From Sandaracinaceae bacterium (GTDB lineage: Bacteria; Myxococcota_A; Polyangia; Polyangiales; JAFGIB01): 64,000 nucleotides of DNA. Below the pieces are notes generated by a model. That model was given only the letters and a program-made list of their open reading frames with translations, did no database searches and was not told the DNA's origin. Position numbers and translations under genes: made by a program. The stretch covers positions 1 through 64,000 of the forward strand of contig JADGRF010000009.1 of NCBI GenBank assembly GCA_017881055.1, in the 5' to 3' direction. Shown piece after piece: positions 1,047 through 59,188 of the stretch; the first letter of the stretch is position 1; every line of letters starts with the position of its first letter.

Positions 1047-2237
1047 ATGCCCGAGCTCGACCTCGCGACCGCCGTACCGGAGCCGCCGAAGCGCCGCAGC
1101 TTGGCGAAGCGAATTGCTGGCATCTCGCTGGGCGTGACGATCGCGTTGGGGATCGTGGGCTCGGCGCATCGCTATCTGTGGCTGCGCTTGGTGCACGATC
1201 CGGTCTGGCCGCGAGCGCTGGAGAGCGCAGGCAGTTGGGCGATTGGGCTCGCGATGGTCCTACTGTTTGCGTATCCGATCATCGAACGCATGCAACCGCC
1301 CCGCATCTCGCGCTTCGTCGTGTGGCCGGCGTTCGTGTGGCTGGGCGCGTGCTTCTACTTGCTGCTCGGCTTTGGTGCAGCTGACACACTGCGCGCATTG
1401 GTTGGCGCCCGCGGCCTTGCGGCTGCACGCATCGAGGCCGAGGCGGTGCTGGCTGGAACGGTCGCGCTGCTGCTCGTGGGCGCCTGGAATGCGCAGCGCG
1501 GGCCGGTGTTGCGCGAAGTCCAGCTGCAGTTACCACGTTGGCCGCGCGGGCTCGATGGCTACCGGATCGTACAGCTCACCGACATCCACATCGGTGCCAC
1601 GCTGCACAAAGAATTCGCGCAGCGGATCGTGGACATGACCGCGGCCGCTAAGCCGGACCTGATTGCGGTCACGGGAGATCTCGTCGATGGCAGCGTCGAG
1701 CATCTCGCGGACGACGTGGCGCCCTTCTCCAAGCTCGCGGCGCGCGATGGCGTGTTCTTCGTGCCTGGCAACCACGACCACTACTCAGGCGCGCGACGTT
1801 GGCTCTCGCACGTCGAGACGCTGGGCATGAAGGTGCTGCACAACTCCCACGTGGTGATCGAGCACCAAGGGCAGAGCTTCGTGCTCGCGGGCGTAGACGA
1901 TCCGACGGGCAGGCGCAGCGGCGGGCGCGGTGACGACGTCGACGCGGCCCTGCGCGGCACGCCGAGTGGGCTCGCCTGCATCCTACTCGCGCACGATCCG
2001 CGCAGCTTCACGCGCGCGCTGGCGCGGCAGGTGACGCTGCAGATCTCCGGGCATACACACGGTGGCCAGATCTGGCCGTTCGGCTATCTGGTGCTGCTAT
2101 CGACCCGCTTCGTGGCGGGCCACTACCGGGTGGGGCAGTCCCAGATCTACGTTAGCCGCGGCGCCGGGTTCTGGGGACCGCCGGTGCGACTGTTTGCGCC
2201 CTCCGAGCTCACGGTGTTGGTGATCAGTTCGGCGTGA
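1047..2237 (+). CDS. Membrane-anchored metallophosphoesterase (YaeI/calcineurin-like family)
   Basis: The protein is about 396 residues. Four hydrophobic segments fill the first ~150 residues, followed by a calcineurin-like phosphoesterase domain. The di-metal motifs are complete: TDIHIG (D179, H181), GDLVD (D211), GNHDH (N242, H243) and SGHTHGG (H336, H338). This arrangement matches membrane phosphodiesterases such as YaeI, which act on lipid or other phosphate esters; the substrate here is unknown. I chose the ATG at 1047. An upstream in-frame GTG at 993 would start within a few bases of the groEL terminator and add a sequence that does not look like protein. The 3' end overlaps the convergent gene by 14 bases. 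Confidence 0.88.
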   Translation: MPELDLATAVPEPPKRRSLAKRIAGISLGVTIALGIVGSAHRYLWLRLVHDPVWPRALESAGSWAIGLAMVLLFAYPIIERMQPPRISRFVVWPAFVWLGACFYLLLGFGAADTLRALVGARGLAAARIEAEAVLAGTVALLLVGAWNAQRGPVLREVQLQLPRWPRGLDGYRIVQLTDIHIGATLHKEFAQRIVDMTAAAKPDLIAVTGDLVDGSVEHLADDVAPFSKLAARDGVFFVPGNHDHYSGARRWLSHVETLGMKVLHNSHVVIEHQGQSFVLAGVDDPTGRRSGGRGDDVDAALRGTPSGLACILLAHDPRSFTRALARQVTLQISGHTHGGQIWPFGYLVLLSTRFVAGHYRVGQSQIYVSRGAGFWGPPVRLFAPSELTVLVISSA

Positions 2238-4122
2238 CTTGCACGCGGGTTCGTTCCAGCTGACGATCGTATTCCTGGGCCTGCAACGCCTCCTCGGAGG
2301 GATACATCGGGCGGCGCAGGCGGAGACGTTCGCCGACCTTGGGCATGACCACGCGACGCAGACCTCGCTCGCCGGGGTACAAGAACCAGTACCGCGGATC
2401 GTCGACCGAGGCGGGGAACGTGAAGCGCACTGCCTGCGGCTGGCCGAACAGCACGCGCAGGACGTCGACGCGCACACCGTCTACGCGGAGCACGTCACCC
2501 ACGTGGAAGGGCTCGTTGGCAGGTCGATAGTTCCCGCCGACGGCCATCATGGCGACGTCGCTCGTGAGCACGACGAGCTCGATGGCGTTGTCGGCGACGC
2601 GCACGAGATCCTGGGGCTGCGCCGCGCCACTGAGCAACAAGTATGACTTGGGCATGGGCCGCTGCGCCATGCGCCGCACGTACGGCAGGTACCACGCGCT
2701 CGTGAGATCCTGCGACGCGATCACCATCACGTGCTGTTGCGCGATGCGTGCCTCATCGAGCTCGGCCCGCAGCACCCAGGTATTCTCCAGCTCGGAACGG
2801 TAGCGCTGCCAGGCCGCCTCAGCGCGGTCGCGCTCGCTCGCAGCATCCACGTGGATCCAGAGCAAGACAGCGCACAGCACCAAACAGACACTGCGACCGA
2901 GCCACGACGGTCGCTTGGAAACGCCGAGAAAGAGCGCGAACAGCAGCGCTGCAATCGCAGCGTCGAAGCCGAGCGCAGCGGCGACAGTCAAGCGCGCCGA
3001 GACCATGCCGCCGGCAACGGGAATCAGCGAGAGCAGCGCGCCCCAGAGCAACCACGAGAACGACTGGGCCAGCGCGTCACCGAAGATCGCGCGAAAGCGA
3101 CGCAGGCAGAGCAACACGATGGTCAATGCGCACACGCCGATCGCGACGTGCCACACGCGCCAATCCGGGAACGCCAACCAGATACGCGCTGGGAACAGTT
3201 GCAGCTGCAGGATGTAGTCGCGCCAGGGACTGCCACCGGTGTACCAATCGGCCGGCACCCCGAACGCGAGCTCGGCAACGAGCACGGGAATGCGCCACAG
3301 CAACGCAGCGACGAAGGCGAGTGGTGCGGCGGTTGGGCTCAAATAGAAGCCTGAGCCGACAATGCCGTAGCCGAGGGCGCTGCGCACGCCGAGGTAGATC
3401 AGCGCAGTCACGACGACCGGCGCAAGACCCCGCGCGCGCGCTCGCCACGCATCGGGCCCACGCGTGGCAGATAGCTCGTACGCAGCGAAATATGCGAAGG
3501 CGCTGAAGGCGTACTCGCCGGCGCTGGCCGCGAGCACGATGAACACGATCGACAGGGCTCTGGCGACCCGCCCTGCTCGCTTGCGCCACAGCATGTGCGC
3601 ATACAACGCGAGGAACCCGAACGCCGTGGCGACGAGCGTGCTGCGGTTCGCGAGCCAACCGAGCGGCAAGCTGTGACCCTCTTCGAGCGCGAAGAGCAGC
3701 GTGGCGAGTGCCGCCATTGGCGGCGGCATGGCTTCCCACAGCACGAGGGCCACGGCGATCACGAGCAGCGCCCACCACAGAAACGAATGCCAGTGGAAAT
3801 AGCGCGCCGACAAGCCAAACGCTGCAAAGTCGAACGCGATCAGCGCGCTGCACAAAGGACGCAACATCGCCAGGTGCACGTGTGGATCGCTCCACCAGGG
3901 AAAATGTCCGCTGTCGATCAGCCGGCGCGTCTCGGTCGACGAGCCGTCGCCGAAGTTGAACATGTCGAAGCGCGAGCGCGGGACCGGGTACGCGCCGACC
4001 TGCATCGCGTGATGATCGAAGTCGTCGGCGAAGAAGCCCGCGTCGAGCAGGGGCGCGCGCAGCATGAAACCGGCGGCGAGGGCAATCACGAGGGAAAGCG
4101 GTAATGCAACGCGTTTGCGCAA
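2224..4122 (-). CDS. Polytopic membrane protein, GT-C glycosyltransferase-like (function unknown)
   Basis: The product is 632 residues with about ten hydrophobic helices over residues 1-420, then a soluble C-terminal part of about 200 residues. The first periplasmic loop contains an acidic FFADDFDHH motif directly after helix 1. That placement is typical of GT-C enzymes, which take sugars from polyprenyl-phosphate donors. This is a fold-level suggestion only, and no specific family was recognised. The start is a TTG at 4122; no better ATG is in frame nearby. It is divergent from the first spermidine-synthase-like gene (142-base gap) and overlaps the metallophosphoesterase gene tail to tail. 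Confidence 0.7.
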   Translation of the reverse strand: MRKRVALPLSLVIALAAGFMLRAPLLDAGFFADDFDHHAMQVGAYPVPRSRFDMFNFGDGSSTETRRLIDSGHFPWWSDPHVHLAMLRPLCSALIAFDFAAFGLSARYFHWHSFLWWALLVIAVALVLWEAMPPPMAALATLLFALEEGHSLPLGWLANRSTLVATAFGFLALYAHMLWRKRAGRVARALSIVFIVLAASAGEYAFSAFAYFAAYELSATRGPDAWRARARGLAPVVVTALIYLGVRSALGYGIVGSGFYLSPTAAPLAFVAALLWRIPVLVAELAFGVPADWYTGGSPWRDYILQLQLFPARIWLAFPDWRVWHVAIGVCALTIVLLCLRRFRAIFGDALAQSFSWLLWGALLSLIPVAGGMVSARLTVAAALGFDAAIAALLFALFLGVSKRPSWLGRSVCLVLCAVLLWIHVDAASERDRAEAAWQRYRSELENTWVLRAELDEARIAQQHVMVIASQDLTSAWYLPYVRRMAQRPMPKSYLLLSGAAQPQDLVRVADNAIELVVLTSDVAMMAVGGNYRPANEPFHVGDVLRVDGVRVDVLRVLFGQPQAVRFTFPASVDDPRYWFLYPGERGLRRVVMPKVGERLRLRRPMYPSEEALQAQEYDRQLERTRVQVTPN

Positions 4123-4264
4123 CGTGTGGTCCCCAAACGCGGGTTCTCTAGCCCCTCGATATCATGAACCCCCCGGGGTCCGTCGACTGCGCAGGCAGCG
4201 ACCCAGCGGAAACACTCGGGATTCCAGCCGACCCGGGCTCGTTTGAGGTAGTCTGTCTGCCCGA

Positions 4265-6721
4265 ATGCCACGCGCGCTCACGTACATCGGCATCTTTCTT
4301 ATCGCCATGGCGACCTTGATGCTGGAGGTGCTGCTCACGCGCATCACCAGCGTCAGCGCCTGGTACCACCTGGCGTTCTTCGTGATCTCGCTCGGCATGC
4401 TGGGCATGACCGCGGGGGCCGTGTTCGTCTTCGTGGCTCCGGCCCTGTTCACGCGCGAGCAGATCGCCGCGCGGCTCACGCAGTCCGCCTTGGGTTTCGC
4501 GCTGGTCGCCCCGATCTGCGTGGGCTTCACGCTGTCGATTCCGCTCGCACCGGTGAGCGACTTGATGAGCTTCTTCGCGTTGCTCGGCTGCGGCGCAACG
4601 CTGGCCCTGCCTTTCATTCTCGCGGGCATCACGCTCACGCTCGCGCTGACGCGTGCCGGTTTGCCCGCCAGCGTGGCCTATGGTGTCGATCTGATCGGCG
4701 CCGCCGTTGGCTGCTTGTCGATGCTTCCGCTGTTGGCGCACGTCGATGCGCCGAGCGCGGCGCTGTTCGCGAGCGCGATCGGTGCGCTGGCCGGCACCGC
4801 CTTTGCGATCGCCAACACGGGCCGGGCGCGCGGCGCCCTCTTGCCGATGCTCAGCGCGCTCGTGCTGTGCCTGTTGGCCAGTGGCAACGCCAGCGCGGCG
4901 TATCCCCCGTTCCGACCTGCCTGGGTAAAAGGCATCCGCGAAGTGCCCGAGTGGTTCTCGTACTTGGGCTGGAATACGTATTCGCGGATCACAGTGGACC
5001 AAGGCGGCGTGAAGCCGCCGGTGTTCTGGGCCAAAGGACGCAACACGCCACCCGAGATGCAGCTGCCGATCGAGCAGCGCGCGCTCTTGATCGATGGCGC
5101 CGCGGGCACGGTCATGACGCGCCTGGGCAGCTCGCTCGACGCGCACAGCTACCTCGACTGGGACATCACAGCGTTCGCGCACCGCTTGCGACCGAGCGGC
5201 CCTGCCGCAGTGATCGGTGTGGGCGGCGGCCGCGACGTGCTCGAGGCCATGCGCGTCGGCCACAAGCCGGTGATCGGCGTGGAGATCAACGACTTGATCG
5301 TGGGCCTGCACCGGGGACGCATGCGCGACTTCTCGGGCATCGCGAGCCTGCCCGGCGTGGAGTTGAAGACCGACGAAGCACGCTCCTTCATGGCGCGCGA
5401 CACACATCACTACGAAGTGCTGACGATGTCGCTGATCGACACCTGGGCCTCGACCGGCGCGGGCGCGTATTCGTTGTCCGAGAACGGCCTGTACACGCGC
5501 GAAGCGTGGCGCATCTTCATCAATCGACTCGCGCCGGACGGGATCTTCACCGTGTCGCGCTGGTACCTGGTGAGCTCGCCGGGTGAGACCGCGCGCATGG
5601 TCGCGCTGGCGATCGAGACGCTATGGTCGATGGGCGCGACGCAACCGCTGCACCACCTGGTGCTGCTGCAGAACGAGCAGGTCGCAACGCTGCTCGTGGC
5701 GCGCAATCCGTTCTCGGGGGCTGACATCGATCGCGTACAGGTCGAAGCGGTGCGCATGGGCTTCAACATGATCCTCACGCCGCGCAAGGTGCCGGCGCAT
5801 CCGGTACTGCGCCAGCTGGTCATGCAACGCACGCGCGACGCGCTCTGGACCTGGACCGCCAACCAAAAGCTCGATCTGACACCGCCCACCGACGCGCGCC
5901 CATTCTTCTTCTCGATGCTCAAGCCGAGCACCTGGCTGATGGACCGCACCAGCGTCGATCAGATGGACCTGAGCTTTCTCGGCAACCTGCAGGCCACCCA
6001 GACGCTCGTGTACGCGACGCTCGTGAGCGTGCTGCTGACACTCCTGACCGTACTCCTGCCGATGAGCCTGCGCAGGCGCGACTTCCCTGCGCTCGGGCGC
6101 GGCAACGTGATCGCGGCGTGCGGCTACTTCGCACTGATCGGCCTCGGCTTCATGTACGTGGAGATGGGCCTATTGTCGCGGCTCAACGTGTTTCTCGGCA
6201 GGCCGACGCTCGCGCTGGCGGTGCTGCTCGCGGGCATCATCTTCTTCACCGGCGTAGGCAGCATGGCGAGCGGTCGCATGCAGCTGGAACGCAGCAAGCT
6301 GACGACGTTCTATCCGTGGATCGCGGCCGCGCTGATCGGCGTGAGCGGCGCCGCGCTGCCAGCGACCATGCACGCCTTCGAGGCCTCCGGCACGCTGACG
6401 CGGGTGATCTGTAGCTTGCTGCTGATGGCGCCGCCGGCCTTCGGCATGGGCCTGGGGTTCCCGGTCGGCCTGCGCTTGGTCGAGAGCATGGAGACGCGCG
6501 TGCTCGCTGCCGCTGTCGGCGGCAAGGCGCGGGACAGTCACGAAGGCTCGGCACTCGGTCCGTGGCTGTGGGGCATCAATGGCGCGTGCGGTGTCTGCGC
6601 GAGTGGGCTCGCGCTCGGCACCTCGATGGTGTTCGGCGTCAACACGACGCTCGCGTTCGGCGCACTCTGCTACGTGCTCCTCCCGCTCGCCACCTCGCGG
6701 CTGCAGCGCGCCGGCTCATGA
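4265..6721 (+). CDS. Membrane spermidine-synthase-like protein 1
   Basis: The product is 818 residues in three parts: about seven hydrophobic helices (residues ~5-215), a soluble SAM-binding Rossmann domain related to spermidine synthase/methyltransferases (~225-575), then about six or seven more helices. The core shows AVIGVGGGRDVLEA (nucleotide loop), VIGVEIND (acidic end of strand 2) and SLSENGLYTREAW. Such proteins are often auto-annotated as spermidine synthase, but the double membrane domain argues against soluble polyamine synthesis. A role in modifying a membrane or periplasmic substrate is inference. The stop overlaps the next start in an ATGA, so the two are translationally coupled. 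Confidence 0.85.
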   Translation: MPRALTYIGIFLIAMATLMLEVLLTRITSVSAWYHLAFFVISLGMLGMTAGAVFVFVAPALFTREQIAARLTQSALGFALVAPICVGFTLSIPLAPVSDLMSFFALLGCGATLALPFILAGITLTLALTRAGLPASVAYGVDLIGAAVGCLSMLPLLAHVDAPSAALFASAIGALAGTAFAIANTGRARGALLPMLSALVLCLLASGNASAAYPPFRPAWVKGIREVPEWFSYLGWNTYSRITVDQGGVKPPVFWAKGRNTPPEMQLPIEQRALLIDGAAGTVMTRLGSSLDAHSYLDWDITAFAHRLRPSGPAAVIGVGGGRDVLEAMRVGHKPVIGVEINDLIVGLHRGRMRDFSGIASLPGVELKTDEARSFMARDTHHYEVLTMSLIDTWASTGAGAYSLSENGLYTREAWRIFINRLAPDGIFTVSRWYLVSSPGETARMVALAIETLWSMGATQPLHHLVLLQNEQVATLLVARNPFSGADIDRVQVEAVRMGFNMILTPRKVPAHPVLRQLVMQRTRDALWTWTANQKLDLTPPTDARPFFFSMLKPSTWLMDRTSVDQMDLSFLGNLQATQTLVYATLVSVLLTLLTVLLPMSLRRRDFPALGRGNVIAACGYFALIGLGFMYVEMGLLSRLNVFLGRPTLALAVLLAGIIFFTGVGSMASGRMQLERSKLTTFYPWIAAALIGVSGAALPATMHAFEASGTLTRVICSLLLMAPPAFGMGLGFPVGLRLVESMETRVLAAAVGGKARDSHEGSALGPWLWGINGACGVCASGLALGTSMVFGVNTTLAFGALCYVLLPLATSRLQRAGS

Positions 6722-9168
6722 CCGAAGCGCGAACGCAGACGGCCGCAGTCTTGCCGCTGGCACTGTTCAGCGTGGTGGCGCTCGCGCTCGAGGTGCTCGT
6801 CACGCGCATCCTCTCGTACAGCGTGCACACGCTGCTGCTCTACGCCGTGCTCGGCGTAGCACTGCTCGGCTTTGGAATCGCCGGCACGCTCGTCGCGGTC
6901 TGGCCACGCCTGCTCGACCGCGAACGGTTGAAAAGCGCGCTCGCGTGGTCGAGCATCGGCGCGGTCTACTCCGTGGTGCTGTCGTTTGCGTGCTTTCTGC
7001 GGATCACGTCGTCGCTGCACGCGGTCGATGCGCTCACGTTTCTGAGCGCCGCGCTCGTGACACTGCCGTTTCTCGCGATCGGCTTCGTGGTCACGCTCGT
7101 GTTGTCGGCGGCCGGCTCGACGCTGCCACGCGCGTATGCTGCCAACCTGATCGGCTCCGGCCTCGGCTGCTTCGTGCCGATCTTGCTGCTCGGTCCGCTC
7201 GACGAGCAACACCTACTGGCGGTGCTCGCCGGCGTCGCCTGGCTCGCGGCGTGGGCCTACGTGCGCGGCGCGGAAACGTCGTGGTCGGCACCGAGCGTGA
7301 TCGTTCACGCGCTCGCGCTACCGCTGGTGATTGCCGGCTTCATCTTCGCCGAGGCCGTATTCCCGCTCGCCCCCGAACCGGCACCGCTCGGACAAGTGTC
7401 GGCGATCTCCGCGTACGCCAAGAGCCACGGCATTCGGATGATCCGTCGGCACGACGCGTCGAGCGCCGTCGGTCGCATCGAGATCTTCGAGTTTCAGAAC
7501 GTGCCGGGCTACGCGAACCCCTACCCGTTCATGTTCTATGCGCAGGACTCCAGCGCAGGCTCCACGCTCGTGCACTGGGACGGGCGCACACGCTCCGCCC
7601 CGCAGCCGCCAGCGGCAGGCGCACCGATCAGCGAAGTCGCGCATCTGTGCAGCGACACGATCTACAGCGCAGGCTACTTCCGGCCGCGGCCGCGCGTGCT
7701 CGTGATCGGACTCGGCGGCGGCCCCGATCTGCTGTGCGCGCTGTATCACGAGGCCACGCACGTCGACGTGGTGGATATCAACCCGCGCACAGTCGCTGCC
7801 ATTCGCGGCCCATTCTCGGCGTTCCTCGGTCACGCGCCGCAGAACCCCGCTGTGACCTTCCACGTGCAGGACGGGCGCAGCTTCGCGCACGGCACACGCG
7901 CCGGCAGCTACGACTTGATTCAGCTGAGCGGCACGGACACCAAGCAAAACCTTGCCTCGGGCTCACTCACGCTCAGCGAAAACCATCTCTATACGGTGGA
8001 AGCGTTTCGCGACTATTTGCAGAGCCTGACGCCGACTGGCGTGCTCGCGATCATTCGTTTCGGCGAGCCCGAAGCGCTGCGTCTCGCCAACACCGCTGCA
8101 TCGGCCCTGCGCAGCATGGGCGCAACCGCTCCTCAGCTGCAGATCAGCGTCGTGCACGACGGCGTGCTCTACGGCGTGATGGTACGTCGCACCGCGTTTC
8201 CACAGGATGAGACCAACGAGCTGTTGCGCTGCCTCAGTCCCACCGCCTTCCGCGGCGTCGACGTGTTCTTCGCGAAGCTCTACGAGCTGCCGTTTCACAA
8301 GCCCGTCGAAATCGCCTACACACCGTTCGGTCCAAGCAACCCGACCTTCACCCGCTTCTTCGAGCAGGTGCAGCTCGGCGAATCGGGTCCGTTCACCGAC
8401 GCCTATCCGTTCGACATCCGGCCCACCACCGACGACCGGCCGTTCTTCTTCGACATCTTTCGCCACGACGACCTGTCCACCTTCATGCGTGCGCCGCACA
8501 TGAAGACGCTGCGCGACATCTTGTTCGCGCTCGGCGCGCTGTCGCTCGCGTTCGTGCTCGCGCCCGTGCTTTTGAGACGACAGGCGCTGCGCGGTTCAGC
8601 GCTCGTGGTTGCGCCGCTGTATTTCACGGCTATCGGGCTCGCGTACCTGTTCGTCGAGGTTTGGCTTCTGGCCCGCTTCTCCGTGTATCTAGGGCACCAG
8701 ACCCACGGGCTCAGTGTCGTGCTCTCCACTCTGCTGGTCACGACCGGGCTCGGCGCATGGTGGTCACCGCGCGCTGCACGCTCCTCACGCATGCGCGCGA
8801 CGCTCGGCGCGAGCCTCGCGGCGCTGGTGCTCGTGCTCGGTAGCTACAACCTCACGAGCATCGTCTCGGCGACGTGGTCGCAACCGTTTGTACTGCGCGT
8901 GTTGATCACCATCGCTTGCATCACGCCGCTCGGTTTCTGCATGGGCCTGCCCATGCCTTCGGGCCTTTCGTGGGCGCGCTCGGCCTATCCGGGGTCGGTC
9001 GCGCTGTGCGTCGGCATCAACGCGTTCGCCTCGGTGATTGCGACCATTGCGGTGCTGCCGATCTCGTTGTTCTACGGCTACGGCGCGGTGCTCGGCTGCG
9101 GCGCTGCGTTGTACGTGCTCGCGAGCCTGCTCGCGTTCGGCATGCGTCGCCCTACTACGCCGACCTGA
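6718..9168 (+). CDS. Membrane spermidine-synthase-like protein 2
   Basis: The product is 816 residues with the same architecture as its upstream neighbour: N-terminal helices, a central SAM-binding fold and C-terminal helices. The core carries VLVIGLGGGPDLLCAL, VDVVDINPRTV and TLSENHLYTVEAF. The second acidic residue region reads LIQLSGTDTKQN instead of the SLIDTWAST seen in the first copy, so substrate or activity may differ. The central domain is followed by TTDDRPFFFDIF, a motif present in all three copies (TDARPFFFS, TDDRPFFFYQN). The ATG at 6718 sits inside the upstream stop. The gene ends with a 14-base convergent overlap with the hemD-like gene. Confidence 0.85.
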   Translation: MTEARTQTAAVLPLALFSVVALALEVLVTRILSYSVHTLLLYAVLGVALLGFGIAGTLVAVWPRLLDRERLKSALAWSSIGAVYSVVLSFACFLRITSSLHAVDALTFLSAALVTLPFLAIGFVVTLVLSAAGSTLPRAYAANLIGSGLGCFVPILLLGPLDEQHLLAVLAGVAWLAAWAYVRGAETSWSAPSVIVHALALPLVIAGFIFAEAVFPLAPEPAPLGQVSAISAYAKSHGIRMIRRHDASSAVGRIEIFEFQNVPGYANPYPFMFYAQDSSAGSTLVHWDGRTRSAPQPPAAGAPISEVAHLCSDTIYSAGYFRPRPRVLVIGLGGGPDLLCALYHEATHVDVVDINPRTVAAIRGPFSAFLGHAPQNPAVTFHVQDGRSFAHGTRAGSYDLIQLSGTDTKQNLASGSLTLSENHLYTVEAFRDYLQSLTPTGVLAIIRFGEPEALRLANTAASALRSMGATAPQLQISVVHDGVLYGVMVRRTAFPQDETNELLRCLSPTAFRGVDVFFAKLYELPFHKPVEIAYTPFGPSNPTFTRFFEQVQLGESGPFTDAYPFDIRPTTDDRPFFFDIFRHDDLSTFMRAPHMKTLRDILFALGALSLAFVLAPVLLRRQALRGSALVVAPLYFTAIGLAYLFVEVWLLARFSVYLGHQTHGLSVVLSTLLVTTGLGAWWSPRAARSSRMRATLGASLAALVLVLGSYNLTSIVSATWSQPFVLRVLITIACITPLGFCMGLPMPSGLSWARSAYPGSVALCVGINAFASVIATIAVLPISLFYGYGAVLGCGAALYVLASLLAFGMRRPTTPT

Positions 9169-10021
9169 CGGCCGCGCCTGCACCACGAGCGAGCTTGCTC
9201 GCGAGCGCATCCGGACCTTCTTTCGCGATCGCCAGCACGAGGTGTCCCATCTTCGGGTGCGCGGGCGCGATGTCGGCTGGCAGGCCGTGCTCGGCCAGCG
9301 TCTCGGTGGCCACGGGCCCGATCGATGCAATCACGACGCGCTCGTGCAGCGCGGACAAGAGCAGAGCGCGCCGACCGCGTCGTTCCGCCACGTCCAGCAG
9401 ATGTTCCACCTGACGCCCGCTCGTAATCGTCAGGACATCGGCCTGACGCCCGCACAGCGTGTCGATCGCACCCTCGAGCGGCGCAAGATCCTCCGGCAGC
9501 GCCCACGCGTAGACGGCAACGCTCTGCACCGTGGCACCACGTGAGGCCAGGCTCGCGAGCAGCTCCGTGCTCGGCTTGCCATACTCCTGCACGAACACGC
9601 GCTGTCCCGACACGGGCACTTCGCGATCGATCACCCCCAGCAGCTCGCGCCACGTGTTCGGCTCGGGCGCGACCGCGACGGCACGCAAACCGAGGGCCTT
9701 GAGCACCGCCACGGGCTTCGGCCCACGGCAGACCAGGCGCGTCTTCGACAGCGCTGCGAGCACGTCCGCGCGCGGCCAACGCACGGCGAGCGCATCGACC
9801 AGCGTGCGCAGGCCGACGCCCGTGAGCAGCACCAGCACGTCGCACTCGCCGGCCAGAAGCCGTTCTCCGAAGGCAAGTACCTCACGCTCGTCGCGCAGAG
9901 GGATCTCTCGCATCGAGGGCGCGCTGATCGCTATGCAGCCGTGGCGCTCGAGCAAGCGCACCATCTCGATCGCATTGCGACTCTCGAGACTCACGACACG
10001 TAGCGCGGACGGCGACGTCAT
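9155..10021 (-). CDS. hemD: Uroporphyrinogen-III synthase (HemD-like)
   Basis: The product is 288 residues, close to the usual HemD length. HemD closes and inverts ring D of hydroxymethylbilane to give uroporphyrinogen III in heme synthesis. The sequence has the two-domain HemD pattern: an N-terminal VVSLESRNAIEMVRLLERHG strand-helix, VLVLLTGVGLRTL at the hinge, then ADVLTITSGRQVEHLL and VVIASIGPVATETLAEHG in the second half. HemD is poorly conserved, so the call rests on this pattern. The ATG at 10021 was chosen because sequence further upstream is low-complexity Arg/Ser. No other heme genes are adjacent; the gene sits isolated between membrane-protein genes. Confidence 0.75.
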   Translation of the reverse strand: MTSPSALRVVSLESRNAIEMVRLLERHGCIAISAPSMREIPLRDEREVLAFGERLLAGECDVLVLLTGVGLRTLVDALAVRWPRADVLAALSKTRLVCRGPKPVAVLKALGLRAVAVAPEPNTWRELLGVIDREVPVSGQRVFVQEYGKPSTELLASLASRGATVQSVAVYAWALPEDLAPLEGAIDTLCGRQADVLTITSGRQVEHLLDVAERRGRRALLLSALHERVVIASIGPVATETLAEHGLPADIAPAHPKMGHLVLAIAKEGPDALASKLARGAGAAVRSA

Positions 10022-10031
10022 GACGCCGAGT

Positions 10032-12470
10032 CTAGCGCCAAAACCGCTGCCAAAGCAGCGCAGCCACGAGATAGGCAAACGCGCCGCAGAAGAGCGTGAC
10101 CTGGGTGCCTGCGTGCAGCGACAGCAGCGTGGCGAAGATCGAGCCGAAGACCGAGGCCGCGCCATTGACGCCCCACAGCCACGGCACACGCGTGGCGTCG
10201 CGCTCAGCCACGGCGGAGAGGCCCGCGGGAAGCGGTGCACCGAGTAGAAACGCGAGAGGCGCAATCGCCAACGCCGCAAACACCGCGCGCAGCGGGAGCT
10301 CGACCGCGTGCAACGACGCAAAGAGCGCGCCGCTCGTCACAGGCAAGAGCGCCGTCAGCGCTGCGATCACGAGAAAGAACCCCGCCCCGCGCCGCTCGGA
10401 GCTGCGCAGAGAGCTCGCGAGCACGCGACTGCCGGCCCCGCCCCCGCACAGCAGCACGAACAGCACGGCCACCAACGTATAGGTCGGCTGGCCGAGGAAC
10501 AGCGTGACCCGGTGCACGAGCGCGATCTCGATGCACATGAAGCCAACACCCAAGCACGCGACGTACGCCAGATCAAAGCCCAGGCCCGCTCGTTGCCTTG
10601 TCGCGTCGCTCGCCGAGCGGCGCAACCAGATCAGCGGCAGCACGCCGCACAGCACGAGCATGACGGCCGAGATCACCAGCACTTTCGCAAGCACACGCAG
10701 GCCGTTGCCGAACAAGTGCGTGGTTTGCGCAGGCAAGAGCGCCGCGACGAAGTCCGAGAAGCGATTCTGGTAGAAGAAGAACGGACGGTCGTCGGTAACC
10801 GGGCTGGTATCGAGCGGCAACGATTCGAACGTTTGTTCGAGGGCTGCCTGCGACGGCGCGCGCACGATCGCTTGCAGCCAACGGTCCTCGGTGCGCGTCG
10901 GAACAGCTGCGTCGTGCGGAGTGAATCCGGACGCGAAGTCGAGATCGTGGAGCGCGGCCTTCCACTTCGCCAGCTCGGCTTCGGAAAAGCCGTCCGGTTT
11001 GATCACGAGGTCGTATAGCTCGGCATCGGGGCGCGCAAACCATGGCGTGTGCGCCACCGCAATCGCGCTCTCCGGCTTGCCGCCGCGCGCGAGCACCGCC
11101 CTTTGCGCCAGCGCCGTCAGCCGCGCACCCACCGCCAAGCCCGGCAAGCTCACGGTGGACACCGTGAGCACGCCTCCCGGTCGCAGGCGCGAGAGGAATT
11201 GTTCGAACGCCTGCACCGTGTACAGGCCGTTCTCCGTGAGCGCGTAGGCGCCCGCCGCTGTTGCAGCTGACGTGTCCACCATGCTGATCAAGATCACGTC
11301 GAACGTGCGCTCGGTTCCCCGCAGGTAGCTGCGGCCGTCACCCTCGACGATCTCCACGTCCTTGCGATCGTAGAGCGCGCCCGAAAATTCGCGATACGCG
11401 CCGCGCATGACGTCGCGCACGATCAACGGGTTGATCTCGACGCCGACCACGTGCCCACTGCCAGCCACGAGCGCGGCCAGCACGTCTTTCCCGCCGCCCG
11501 CGCCCACGACGCACACATCGCGCGGGCGGCCCACGACGCGGTACACGAGCGAGCTCAAGTCGCTCTGCACATAGGCGACCTTGTCGAAGTCGCCATCGAA
11601 ACGCGCAATCGAGGTGAGCGCGCTCATGTCGATCACCAAGGTCTTCTGCTCGGGCAGCGTGCCGTGAAAGCGTGGCGAGAGCCCCCAGCCGCGGAACCCC
11701 TGTTGCCCGAACACGTGGACGAGCGAGAACGAGTTCCAGCGCGTCAGCTCCGGCTTCGTGCGCGTGAGATCGACGCCCTTGGCGGCACGCAGATCCAGCG
11801 CCGAGCCACCGCCCAGCATCAACTCCAGCAGCGCACACGCACCCGCGGCGAGCACGAACAAGCGACGCACGGCAAGGCGCTCGCGCACCTCCAGCAGGAA
11901 CACGAGCGCGGACAGAGTTGCCATGCCCGCGCAGGCGCACAGGCTGACCGGGCCGCCGAGCACAGACAGCAACGGGATCGTCAGCAGGCAACCCACGCCC
12001 GCTCCAGCCAGATCCACGAAGTACACGCGCCGCACGTCGCTGCCGAAGCGCGCGATCACGCACGCCAGCACGAAGCCGCCCGACGCGAACGGCAGCACGG
12101 CCAACAGGAACACGAGCGCAAGCTTCCATGTGAAGAGCGTGAACGCGCCCGTCATCCCGCCGAACCAATCGGGCGTGACGTGCGACAAGGCGAGCGCCAA
12201 GAGCAGCGTCCCCAGGCCTTGCAGCAGCGCAAACGCAGCGCAAAAGCCCTGCCAAAACCCGCGCAGCAGCGGCGCCTGAAACGCATGCACCGCGAGCGCC
12301 GATAGGCCGGTGCCAAGCAGCGCGACCGAGATCGCGAAGAACGCGAAGTGGTACCAAATCGTGACCGAGAGCACGCGCGTCAGCGCGATCTCCGTGGCCA
12401 TCAACGATGCGCTGATGACCGCGACTCCCGTGAGCAGAGACGCGCCCGCGCTCGCTGGTCTGTCCGACAT
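10032..12470 (-). CDS. Membrane spermidine-synthase-like protein 3
   Basis: The product is 812 residues and is a third member of the family at 4265-9168, here on the opposite strand. Its N-terminal start (MATEIALTRVLSVTIWYHFAF) closely parallels copy 1 (MLEVLLTRITSVSAWYHLAF). The core has VCVVGAGGGKDVLAAL, VVGVEINPLIV, GDGRSYL and ALTENGLYTVQAF, and retains the SMVDTSAAT acidic site like copy 1. Copies 1 and 3 therefore look closer to each other than to copy 2. I chose ATG 12470; a TTG four codons upstream is also open. It starts divergently from the membrane protein gene at 12594, leaving a 123-base shared upstream region. Confidence 0.85.
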   Translation of the reverse strand: MSDRPASAGASLLTGVAVISASLMATEIALTRVLSVTIWYHFAFFAISVALLGTGLSALAVHAFQAPLLRGFWQGFCAAFALLQGLGTLLLALALSHVTPDWFGGMTGAFTLFTWKLALVFLLAVLPFASGGFVLACVIARFGSDVRRVYFVDLAGAGVGCLLTIPLLSVLGGPVSLCACAGMATLSALVFLLEVRERLAVRRLFVLAAGACALLELMLGGGSALDLRAAKGVDLTRTKPELTRWNSFSLVHVFGQQGFRGWGLSPRFHGTLPEQKTLVIDMSALTSIARFDGDFDKVAYVQSDLSSLVYRVVGRPRDVCVVGAGGGKDVLAALVAGSGHVVGVEINPLIVRDVMRGAYREFSGALYDRKDVEIVEGDGRSYLRGTERTFDVILISMVDTSAATAAGAYALTENGLYTVQAFEQFLSRLRPGGVLTVSTVSLPGLAVGARLTALAQRAVLARGGKPESAIAVAHTPWFARPDAELYDLVIKPDGFSEAELAKWKAALHDLDFASGFTPHDAAVPTRTEDRWLQAIVRAPSQAALEQTFESLPLDTSPVTDDRPFFFYQNRFSDFVAALLPAQTTHLFGNGLRVLAKVLVISAVMLVLCGVLPLIWLRRSASDATRQRAGLGFDLAYVACLGVGFMCIEIALVHRVTLFLGQPTYTLVAVLFVLLCGGGAGSRVLASSLRSSERRGAGFFLVIAALTALLPVTSGALFASLHAVELPLRAVFAALAIAPLAFLLGAPLPAGLSAVAERDATRVPWLWGVNGAASVFGSIFATLLSLHAGTQVTLFCGAFAYLVAALLWQRFWR

Positions 12471-12593
12471 GTCTGACCGCAAGCAAGCAGAACGCGCGTG
12501 CGCACGTCAACGGGTACGTGCTTCGAATTCACGTTCCGGCCCCTGCCCGCTTCCCGTGGCTCGTGTCGGTGGGCTATCAATCGTCTCAGCTTC

Positions 12594-14537
12594 GTGAACG
12601 CCACGTCCCCTAGCCCCGTGCCCGCGCCGACCGGCAGACGGCGTGACTTGCGCTTCGCACTGGCAGCGCTCGCGCTCGTGGTTGCGCACTGCGCCGCGGC
12701 CGCTTACTTCGATCCCCCGAGCGTCATCTTCGGCAAGCGCCCGATCTCGGGCAGCGACTTCGACACGCACATCGAGCAGACCTGGCGCGTGCTCGAAGGC
12801 CTCGAGACCGCCGGCAAGACCTGGGTCTACGACACGCACCTGCTCGCCGGCCATCCCAACGGCGTAATCTTCGACGCCGACAACAAAGGCTGGGAGTACC
12901 TCACGTACTTCTTCGTGAAGCTCGGCGTGCGGCGCGCCGTGGCGTTCAACCTGTTCGTGTTGCTCGCCCATCTGCTCGTGTTGCCGGTCACGTTCATCTC
13001 GGCGCGCGCGTTCGGACTCACACGCTGGGCCAGGCTGACCGCCACCGCGCTTGCCTCGTGGCTCTGGCTGTTCGATTCCTACGTGCACTGGATCTGGTGG
13101 GTCGGCACGCTCGCGTTCGCCTTCGCGTCGTACTTTGCGTTGCTACCTTTCGCGCTATTCCATCGCTATCTCGCCGATCGTCGACTGGTCCACGCGCTCG
13201 GCTGCGGCGTGACGCTCGCGCTCGCGCACCTCATCCATCCGTACACGTTTCTGATCGTGGTGATCCCGATGGGCGCGCTCTACCTACGCGCGCGGCGCAC
13301 GCTCTCCTTGCGCGATCACGCCGGCGTCGGCTTCGTCGTGCTGTTCACGCTCGCGGCCAACGCCGGTTGGCTCGCGGCGTCGCTCGCGCAATGGCACTAC
13401 ATCCTCGACTCCGGCTATTTCGGCCAGTCGCGCCTGATGCAGCTGCCGGCGGACTACTTCGGCGTTCTGCTCGATACGACCATCACCGGCATCATCGCCA
13501 CGCGCACCAGCGTGCGTTTTCTGTGCTTCGGCGCGGCCCTGGTCGTGCTCGTCGACTACGCACGGCGTCGCGACCCGCGGCTGTTGGCCTTCGTCGCTGC
13601 ACTGGCGCCTCTGCTCACGATGACCATCTTCGGCGGCTACTCGAAGATCTGCGCGCAGGTGCAACCCTACCGCTTCATCGGCCCCGCCATGTTCTTCGCC
13701 ACGATCCCAGCCGGAGAGCTCGTGACGCTGCTCGCGCGCGAGGGCGCATGGAAGACGCTGTCGGCACCGTTACGTGGCGCGCTCTGTGTGCTAGCTGCGC
13801 TTGGCGTGCAGAAGCTGAGCGGTGACGCGCTCAGCTACTTCCCCAACTTGCTTCCGCAGGTGCCGCCACTGCTCGACGGAATCCCGTCCCCGATCGACGC
13901 CACGGGCCATCCGCCCTTCGGCACCTACTGGCACATCCCCGATCATCCACTGTTCTGGGAGCTGCCGCGTTGGGTGACTGCGCACGACGATGGGCAAGGT
14001 CGCTTCCTCGTGCAAACGAGCGCCGTCGGCGAGCAGCTAGCATGGAAGACCGACGCCGAGATCCTCGGCGGCTTCGTGCTGCGCAACCTCGAGCATTCTC
14101 ACTCCAATCTTTTCCGCCGTCGGCTCGAGCGCGAGCAGACGCCCGCAGAAGTACGGGCGTACCTGGAAGCGTACGCAGTCGAGTGGGTGGTGCTGACCTT
14201 CCCCGATCCCTGGTTCGCCACGATGCCGGAGCTGTTCGAGCGCTACGCAGAAGTGGCTGGCGGCGTCGTTCTGAAGACCAAGGTTCCGATCTCGCGCTTC
14301 GAGCACGGACACGGCGAGATCAACGCGCGCACCAACCGCATCCTGGTCACGCACACCGATCCGAACGAAGACATCGTGCTGCGTTATCACTTCCACGAGG
14401 CACTCACCTGCGGGCCTCGCTGCGGCATTCAGCCCTCGAAGAATCCGGTCGGCGGCGTGCCATTCATCCGCATCCCCGCGCCGCACCCGGCGAACTTCGT
14501 CGTCCAGAACACGTACGGCAAACCGCCGGCACGTTGA
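12594..14537 (+). CDS. Polytopic membrane protein, GT-C-like (function unknown)
   Basis: The product is about 647 residues. One N-terminal helix is followed by a loop containing ISGSDFDTHIEQTWRVLEG (acidic residues after helix 1). About nine more helices run to residue ~430, then a soluble tail of ~210 residues. This resembles large GT-C-like membrane proteins, including the family annotated as 6-pyruvoyl-tetrahydropterin-synthase-related membrane proteins; I cannot assign a substrate. It is not similar in sequence to the protein at 2224-4122, although both have the same general plan. The start is uncertain: GTG 12594 is chosen because the upstream in-frame extension to 12498 is not protein-like and lies in the promoter gap. 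Confidence 0.65.
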   Translation: MNATSPSPVPAPTGRRRDLRFALAALALVVAHCAAAAYFDPPSVIFGKRPISGSDFDTHIEQTWRVLEGLETAGKTWVYDTHLLAGHPNGVIFDADNKGWEYLTYFFVKLGVRRAVAFNLFVLLAHLLVLPVTFISARAFGLTRWARLTATALASWLWLFDSYVHWIWWVGTLAFAFASYFALLPFALFHRYLADRRLVHALGCGVTLALAHLIHPYTFLIVVIPMGALYLRARRTLSLRDHAGVGFVVLFTLAANAGWLAASLAQWHYILDSGYFGQSRLMQLPADYFGVLLDTTITGIIATRTSVRFLCFGAALVVLVDYARRRDPRLLAFVAALAPLLTMTIFGGYSKICAQVQPYRFIGPAMFFATIPAGELVTLLAREGAWKTLSAPLRGALCVLAALGVQKLSGDALSYFPNLLPQVPPLLDGIPSPIDATGHPPFGTYWHIPDHPLFWELPRWVTAHDDGQGRFLVQTSAVGEQLAWKTDAEILGGFVLRNLEHSHSNLFRRRLEREQTPAEVRAYLEAYAVEWVVLTFPDPWFATMPELFERYAEVAGGVVLKTKVPISRFEHGHGEINARTNRILVTHTDPNEDIVLRYHFHEALTCGPRCGIQPSKNPVGGVPFIRIPAPHPANFVVQNTYGKPPAR

Positions 14538-58148: not shown

Positions 58149-58201
58149 GGCGCTGGCACAGTGGGCCCCTGATGCGACCTGCTTTTTGCGGAGGCCTTCC
58201 T

Positions 58202-59188
58202 ATGATTCGACTCGCGCGCCTATTGCGCCCACTGCAGCTGACAGCGGCGGTCCTGCTCGTCTCGGCTTGTGGAAGCACTAAAAACCCCGCCAACGCAGCT
58301 TGCGTGAACGGCATCTGCGGCACCGCCGGCAACGGCGGCGCAGGTGGCAACGGCTCTAGCGGCAACGGCGGCGCGGGTGGCAACGGCTCTAGCGGCAACG
58401 GCGGCGCGGGTGGCAACGGCTCTAGCGGCAACGGCGGCGCGGGTGGCAACGGCTCTAGCGGCAACGGCGGCGCGGGCGGCAACGGCTCTAGCGGCAACGG
58501 CGGCGCGGGCGGCAGCGGCGGACCGAGCTGCGTGGCCGGCGCGAACTGTCAGGAATCCTGGACCTGCACGCCCTGGCAAACCGCGGGCACGCCGAAGCAC
58601 GGGCAGGCCAGCGGCGACAACGCCGGCACGCGCACCTGCACGGATGCCTGCAGCTGCGGCACCACCAAGAGCAAGCCGACGGAGAGCGTCACGCTCCTCC
58701 CGCTCGACTTCGACTTCTATCAATGCTCGGTCGAGCCTGTGCTCGACAAGTTCTGCGCGCAGATGGGCTGTCACGGCACCGAGACTGGTCGCGCCCTGCG
58801 CATCTACGCCCGCGGCAAGTTGCGCCACGCCGGCGAGAACTGGACCTACGACGGCTGCCTGCAGACCAACGTGCACATCACGTCCGACTCGTGCATCGGC
58901 TCGGTCGAGTGCGGTTGCTACCTCCTGCCGCATTCCGACACCGAGTGGCAGCGCAACTACGACGCAGCGCGCGCGTTCGCGCTCGATGCGACCGGCACGA
59001 AGCTCGCCAACATGGATAACTCCGAGCTGCTCAAGCAGCCGGTGAGGGACGGTGGGCTCGCGCATGCGGGCATCCACATCTTCACCAAGGCCGGCGCCGA
59101 CTACGCGACGATCAAGACCTGGCTGACGGGCACAGGCAAGACAGGCCCGGGCACGGGCTGCAACAACACGGCTCAACAGTCGAACTGA
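58202..59188 (+). CDS. Gly-rich lipoprotein with CX4CH variant heme motif (module gene A)
   Basis: The product is 328 residues. Lipobox LVSAC at residue ~23. A repeat-encoded Gly/Asn/Ser linker spans ~45-105. The C-terminal domain contains YQCSVEPVLDKFCAQMGCHG with C185-x4-C190-H191, then RALRIYARGKLRHAG, and near the end ELLKQPVRDGG, HAGIHIFTKAGADYATIKTWL. This resembles planctomycete-type cytochrome domains (VQPIL..CxxCHG) with two extra residues in the heme motif. Extra Cys pairs suggest disulfides. GGAGG at 58190-58194 precedes ATG 58202. It is paired with the CXXCH gene that follows. Confidence 0.78.
   Translation: MIRLARLLRPLQLTAAVLLVSACGSTKNPANAACVNGICGTAGNGGAGGNGSSGNGGAGGNGSSGNGGAGGNGSSGNGGAGGNGSSGNGGAGGNGSSGNGGAGGSGGPSCVAGANCQESWTCTPWQTAGTPKHGQASGDNAGTRTCTDACSCGTTKSKPTESVTLLPLDFDFYQCSVEPVLDKFCAQMGCHGTETGRALRIYARGKLRHAGENWTYDGCLQTNVHITSDSCIGSVECGCYLLPHSDTEWQRNYDAARAFALDATGTKLANMDNSELLKQPVRDGGLAHAGIHIFTKAGADYATIKTWLTGTGKTGPGTGCNNTAQQSN
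58346..58510 (+). repeat. Five tandem 33-bp repeats inside the lipoprotein gene
   Basis: Five near-identical 33-base units encode GNGSSGNGGAG each. They keep the frame and form a flexible linker between the lipid anchor and the CX4CH domain. Copy number probably varies between strains. Confidence 0.9.

Follow-up and report, generated by a model that had tools for sequence, protein, structure and literature searches.

Aminopropyltransferases, including the spermidine synthases (PF01564, TIGR00417), have a motif 2 of the form hhhhGGG(D/E)G (PMC11107197). In fused MFS/spermidine synthase proteins (NF037959), the spermidine-synthase domain lies C-terminal to the whole membrane part. The three-component extracytoplasmic pentofuranose systems consist of a UbiA-type polyprenyl-phosphoribose synthase (PPPRS), a MATE flippase and a GT136 enzyme of GT-C type (PMC11127046). 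Here we describe a locus at 2224-14537 of the window (the whole 64,000-nucleotide stretch of Sandaracinaceae DNA that was analysed) that can be compared with all three. The three related membrane proteins encoded there, copies 1, 2 and 3, resemble spermidine synthases in the fold of the soluble domain, in GxGGG and in an acidic ribose-binding motif. They differ in that this domain is set between two membrane blocks and is predicted to lie outside the cytoplasm, and in that they lack the motif 2 acid and the catalytic Asp and have ENxLYT and TDxRPFFF motifs of their own. Like NF037959 proteins they combine a polytopic membrane part with a spermidine-synthase domain; the SAM domains are similar in profile comparisons (probability 90-97%) and a TDD-type motif follows the domain when the sequences are compared by eye. 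However, the domain of copy 1 sits between two seven-helix blocks and not at the C-terminal end. As in the pentofuranose systems, UbiA-family and GT-C proteins are encoded together, but the set described here adds a reductase and a SAM-fold membrane protein, and its UbiA protein carries DxxxD. The best overall explanation, to which we assign a probability of about 0.45, is a membrane family with the spermidine-synthase fold whose copy 2 and copy 3 types modify a glycolipid or glycan together with the GT-C/UbiA/reductase set.

A first-pass annotation of the window had described three membrane-embedded spermidine-synthase-like enzymes, two of them translationally coupled, between two GT-C-like proteins. 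All three reading frames are full-length (Table 1), with transmembrane blocks at both ends of a SAM-type core, and copies 1 and 2 are indeed coupled, their ORFs overlapping by the ATGA at 6718-6721. The set is flanked by two different polytopic membrane proteins, each divergent from its neighbour (GTC1/copy 1 and copy 3/GTC2). It is not contiguous, because hemD, which is probably a bystander, interrupts copies 2 and 3; copy 3 lies 10 bp upstream of hemD on the same minus strand. Neither intergenic gap (142 and 123 bp) contained a sigma-70 consensus promoter, and terminator-like sites at the locus occurred only at chance level. The DDRPFFF motif ascribed to all three proteins is found in copies 2 and 3, whereas copy 1 reads DARPFFF; among 118 homologs the second column of the DxRPFFF motif is D in 68, A in 29 and E in 18. 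Genes in the loci were assigned with a codon-usage caller checked on the window; longest-ORF calling gave antisense artefacts at high GC. Elsewhere in the window, an ORF at 58172-59188 contains a run of short Gly/Asn/Ser-rich repeats (GGNGSSGNGGA).

Table 1. Features of the locus (window coordinates; basis given where a model or a search supports the assignment)
Feature	Position	Strand	Basis
GTC1, GT-C-type membrane protein, about 632 aa	2224..4122	-	AF2 model and PDB fold matches
GTC1/copy 1 intergenic gap, 142 bp, presumed promoter region	4123..4264	.	
Copy 1 (C1), 818 aa: 7 TM, spermidine-synthase-fold domain, 7 TM	4265..6721	+	AF2 model, fold matches
Copy 1 TM7, residues 188-210, preceding SAM-fold domain	4826..4894	+	
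Copy 1 spermidine-synthase-fold domain, residues 231-550, predicted extracytoplasmic	4955..5914	+	
Copy 1 SLIDT, residues 389-393; Ser where aminopropyltransferases have catalytic Asp; Asp392 kept	5429..5443	+	
Copy 1 DARPFFF motif	5891..5911	+	
Copy 1 TM8, residues 569-602, then RRR	5969..6070	+	
Copy 2 (C2), 816 aa, ATGA-coupled to copy 1	6718..9168	+	
hemD, uroporphyrinogen-III synthase	9155..10021	-	PF02602 E 8.6e-37
Copy 3 (C3), 812 aa, directly upstream of hemD	10032..12470	-	
Copy 3/GTC2 intergenic gap, 123 bp, presumed promoter region	12471..12593	.	
GTC2, probable GT-C-type membrane protein, about 647 aa, start uncertain	12594..14537	+	

The structure prediction proposed in the first-pass annotation was carried out for copy 1 with AlphaFold2, using an alignment of 36 family members (mean pLDDT 92.7, pTM 0.93). 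The model consists of seven helices (3-210), a mixed domain (231-550) and a further seven helices (569-817); copies 2 and 3 can be aligned to copy 1 along their whole length at the sequence level. We regard the architecture, a spermidine-synthase-fold domain between two seven-helix membrane blocks, as nearly certain. In a Foldseek search of the PDB with copy 1, the best 50 listed matches were all aminopropyltransferases, including spermidine synthases (best E about 1e-6), and a sequence profile matched the PDB aminopropyltransferases 1UIR and 3ANX (E 1e-12), the match being confined to the SAM domain. The curated PF01564 cut-off of 22.9 bits was passed by copy 3 alone (25.3 bits; copy 1 scored 11.1 bits and copy 2 gave no match). 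NF037959 was not listed for the three copies (E up to 1) or for the family members searched (E up to 0.01). Classical NF037959 proteins are also encoded in the same genome (L002, L003, L005). Literature searches found no described family with this architecture, and the domain arrangement together with the predicted outside placement is new among membrane spermidine-synthase-like proteins.

Eight residues are invariant in the 118 homologs (Gly318, Gly320, Arg373, Glu406, Tyr410, Thr411, Asp543 and Pro546) and three more are nearly so (Asp324 98%, Glu340 95%, Asp392 96%). Gly318, Gly320, Asp324 and Glu340 are nucleotide-binding features that the family retains; Arg373, Glu406, Tyr410, Thr411, Asp543 and Pro546 are peculiar to it. 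The first-pass annotation had named loss of the SAM-site residues from every copy as evidence against its proposal; the SAM-type motif is kept in all three. The acid of motif 2 is replaced by Gly322 in 106/118 sequences, and the position that aligns with the catalytic Asp of 1UIR, in the DxxD(P) motif, is Ser389, likewise in 106/118. Copy 2 had been singled out for altered acidic-site residues. It does have Asp in place of Glu340, a minor change that leaves Asp324 and Asp392 intact, but the larger loss, that of both aminopropyltransferase acids, is common to all three copies and to the family. Because both acids are replaced while the SAM-type pocket is kept, polyamine synthesis is unlikely, and judged by these residues the copies are very probably not polyamine aminopropyltransferases. 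The simplest reading would be a SAM-type transferase rather than a polyamine synthase, and we give SAM-dependent group transfer an even chance of being the reaction. To our knowledge, no member of the family has a tested activity or an established substrate.

The position of the domain relative to the membrane was predicted from loop charge. Averaged over the 118 homologs, the loops on the presumed cytosolic side carry 2.05, 1.60, 1.81, 3.36 and 2.60 K+R and those on the opposite side 0.03, 0.45, 0.16, 0.04 and 1.28, with the same orientation in 118/118. If TM7 and TM8 both cross the membrane, this agreement makes the SAM-fold domain extracytoplasmic. No helix is more hydrophobic than TM8, which is followed by more positive charge than precedes it in 108/118 homologs. 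The charge flanking TM7 is not decisive (1.37 vs 1.59 K+R), which leaves helix count, loop parity and TM8 as the basis for placing the domain outside. From these features a periplasmic domain appears likely, and it is both the most interesting and the most doubtful point of the analysis. SAM is cytoplasmic in known bacteria, and we know of no periplasmic SAM pool; this counts against the domain being outside or else against SAM being the donor. Literature searches found no SAM transporter serving the periplasm. The copies might be SAM-dependent transferases that feed themselves, the SAM-fold domain modifying lipid-linked glycans on the periplasmic face while its own membrane half supplies SAM or a related nucleoside, but we consider this distinctly unlikely.

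The first-pass annotation described both flanking proteins as GT-C-like. For GTC1 the description is borne out by an AF2 model (pLDDT 87.0, pTM 0.88) whose clear PDB fold matches are GT-C enzymes (STT3/AglB/PglB, ArnT, PMT, DPY19 and PimE); on this model GTC1 has a GT-C fold, and Asp34 of its 'ADD', an acidic residue in the first outer loop, is nearly invariant. The case for GTC2 is weaker: PF10131 (PTPS_related) was matched by two of four members of its family (best E 1.5e-8) and not by GTC2 of the window. Its Asp55 and His59 are invariant in nine homologs, it is linked genomically to GTC1, UbiA and the SAM-fold family, and by sequence it is a probable GT-C-type protein. PDB sequence-profile searches with GTC1 and GTC2 returned nothing relevant.

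Conservation of the cluster, which the first-pass annotation had wished to see examined, was found in two other genomes of the window's genus (G001 and G002; the window's own genome is G000). The order in G002 is GTC1, copy 1, hemD, copy 3, GTC2, without copy 2. The G001 locus, from which copies 2 and 3 are both missing, reads GTC1, copy 1, hemD, GTC2; two further contigs of G001 carry copy 2-type genes, in each case next to GTC1-like ones. hemD stays adjacent to copy 1 in G001, G002 and G004. Proximity was counted for 64 family members against GTC1/GTC2 matches in 57 genomes of the order. A family member lay within 5 kb of a GTC1 homolog 16 times (0.76 expected), within 5 kb of a GTC2 homolog nine times (0.14 expected) and within 1 kb of another member 17 times (0.14 expected); some of these counts represent the same ancestral locus, and separate contexts include G003:C835, G005:C134, G026:C1413, G030:C65, G039:C1 and G042:C98. 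At the level of whole genomes, GTC2 co-occurs with the SAM-fold family in 12/13 (P 2e-5, which ignores shared ancestry).

The three types behave differently in this respect. The copy 2 type adjoins GT-C genes at 6/6 loci examined; the copy 3 type often does and is intermediate between the copy 1 and copy 2 types. In most genomes the copy 1 type is found on its own, and in Nannocystaceae and Alphaproteobacteria it is scattered and lacks accompanying GT-C genes; family function therefore does not require a GT-C partner. Scattering of the copies away from GT-C genes, which the first-pass annotation had said would speak against it, is thus seen for the copy 1 type and not for the copy 2 type. It is quite probable that copies 2 and 3 are functionally linked to the GT-C/UbiA set, and copy 1 is probably independent of it. 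Protein-isoaspartate methyltransferase genes were considered as a further partner and rejected, being linked to a few Phyllobacterium and Paraburkholderia plasmid homologs only and absent at the window locus. On those plasmids (L141 6333-9445, Phyllobacterium; L144 5417-8704, Paraburkholderia) a PF01135 gene directly precedes the family member, and in L141 the protein-isoaspartate methyltransferase gene overlaps it by 4 bp.

Two further genes recur at copy 2/3-type and GT-C loci, one of the UbiA family (PF01040) and one for a flavoprotein of the geranylgeranyl-reductase family (TIGR02032). The UbiA relative is a single gene in each of 16/57 genomes, 15 of which contain the SAM-fold family (P 3e-7, uncorrected for ancestry), and at most of its sites it adjoins GTC1, GTC2 or a SAM-fold gene. 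The window's own genome has a locus apart from the window, on contig C330 (L148 7091-14069), where UbiA and the reductase are found with a GTC1 paralog and a class I methyltransferase. The UbiA motifs are NDxxDxxxD and DxxxD, the latter in 15/15 sequences that cover the second motif. Identity as a PPPRS was rejected, since DxxxD takes the place of the R/E residues found in loop IV of those enzymes (PMC11127046); by its motifs a prenyl-transfer role is more likely for this protein than a pentose-donor role. Beside UbiA in three genomes (L153 6407-8563, L156 6791-8956, L158 1-2091) there is also a membrane protein of ~700 aa that looks GT-C-like by eye; the one tested had no NCBIfam match. Literature searches found no description of a UbiA/reductase/GT-C/SAM-fold module.

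In a FastTree tree of 100 members, copies 1, 2 and 3 fall in separate well-supported clades, each holding orthologs from other families or orders. Members of the copy 1 clade occur across Nannocystaceae and Sandaracinaceae, mostly without GT-C neighbours. The tree indicates three deep clades rather than a recent triplication, so it was old paralogs that came together in the array, and a division of work among the copies, as first suggested, would fit. A family member is present in 83/239 sampled Myxococcota genomes, and the family also occurs in Alphaproteobacteria, Planctomycetota, Acidobacteriota, Nitrospinota and others, as well as on plasmids, for which the records read give only SAM-dependent methyltransferase, spermine synthase or hypothetical protein.

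These data bear on what the membrane-bound domain might do. Were the copies true aminopropyltransferases, anchored in the membrane and making a polyamine or aminopropylating a surface glycan, then the fold and the weak family matches, both of which point to spermidine synthases, would be accounted for, and surface spermidine has been reported in Pseudomonas aeruginosa (Johnson et al. 2012, as cited in PMC11107197). Both defining acids are replaced, however, the aminopropyltransferase equivalog cut-offs are missed by >200 bits, the genome has a separate, strong PF01564 match elsewhere (E 1.8e-57), and no gene for SAM decarboxylase was observed next to the set. Aminopropyl transfer, one of the reactions first suggested, is accordingly very unlikely. 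The active part could instead be the membrane half, as an MFS-like protein that flips or exports a lipid or lipid-linked sugar, with the SAM-fold domain acting as a ligand sensor or in substrate binding only. The fourteen helices split 7+7, charged residues within them are conserved among the 118 homologs (Arg26 99%; Glu21 or Gln; Glu633 93%), and over 160 columns the C-terminal half shows similarity (E 9e-4) to the membrane portion of a fused MFS/spermidine-synthase protein. A flippase is required in known GT-C systems (PMC11127046), and a protein of this kind would provide the one that is missing; no dedicated or MATE flippase gene was recognised in the loci read. The two halves also appeared related in order, as an internal 6+6 repeat, in one profile comparison of 36 sequences (E 7e-5), but the match fell to E 0.07 with 118 sequences and the repeat is only suggestive. 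Few parts are as well conserved across phyla as the catalytic-type pocket, which argues for chemistry, and homologs exist without GT-C genes. We hold an exporter to be unlikely.

The chemistry might also take place on the other side of the membrane, a cytoplasmic SAM-fold domain methylating a lipid intermediate that faces the cytosol and is flipped only afterwards to the GT-C enzymes. This would agree with the location of SAM itself and with TM7, whose flanking charge picks neither side. The catalytic motifs of UbiA-type PPPRS likewise sit in cytoplasmic loops (PMC11127046). Against it, the positive loops of 118/118 homologs put the domain outside, and TM8, the most hydrophobic helix, ends in a positive cluster; a cytoplasmic domain seems to us improbable on present evidence. 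That paralog expansion brought these genes together by accident, without any shared pathway, is suggested by the size of the GTC1 family (seven paralogs in this genome and 18 in G003, sometimes in tandem as in G004:C72 and G004:C152) and by the usual isolation of the copy 1 type. Yet proximity exceeds expectation by >20-fold, involves both GT-C families and recurs in separate contexts, and UbiA, with one gene per genome, joins the same loci. Coincidence is extremely unlikely.

We favour a SAM-dependent transferase that acts on an isoprenoid-linked glycan or glycolipid. In such a pathway UbiA and the reductase would make or tailor an isoprenoid lipid, the GT-C enzymes would transfer sugars in the periplasm, and proteins of the copy 2 and copy 3 types would add a SAM-derived group, most simply methyl, to the glycolipid or glycan; the SAM-type donor or the lipid substrate might pass through the membrane domain. 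Copy 1 may do a related job independent of the GT-C set. Modification of a lipid-linked or surface glycan, as originally suggested for the whole array, is thus upheld for copies 2 and 3 by the GTC1 fold, the co-localisation and the UbiA/reductase genes; copy 1 probably stands apart.

The family is poorly annotated in the plasmid records read, yet roughly one in three of the Myxococcota genomes sampled has a member, and many other phyla have it too. The recurrent association of two of its three types points to an undescribed lipid or sugar modification at the cell membrane. If the domain is truly extracytoplasmic, one has to ask how SAM chemistry is possible there. The UbiA/reductase/GT-C/SAM-fold set would amount to a new pathway for a glycolipid or glycan, in a phylum about whose envelope chemistry little is known.
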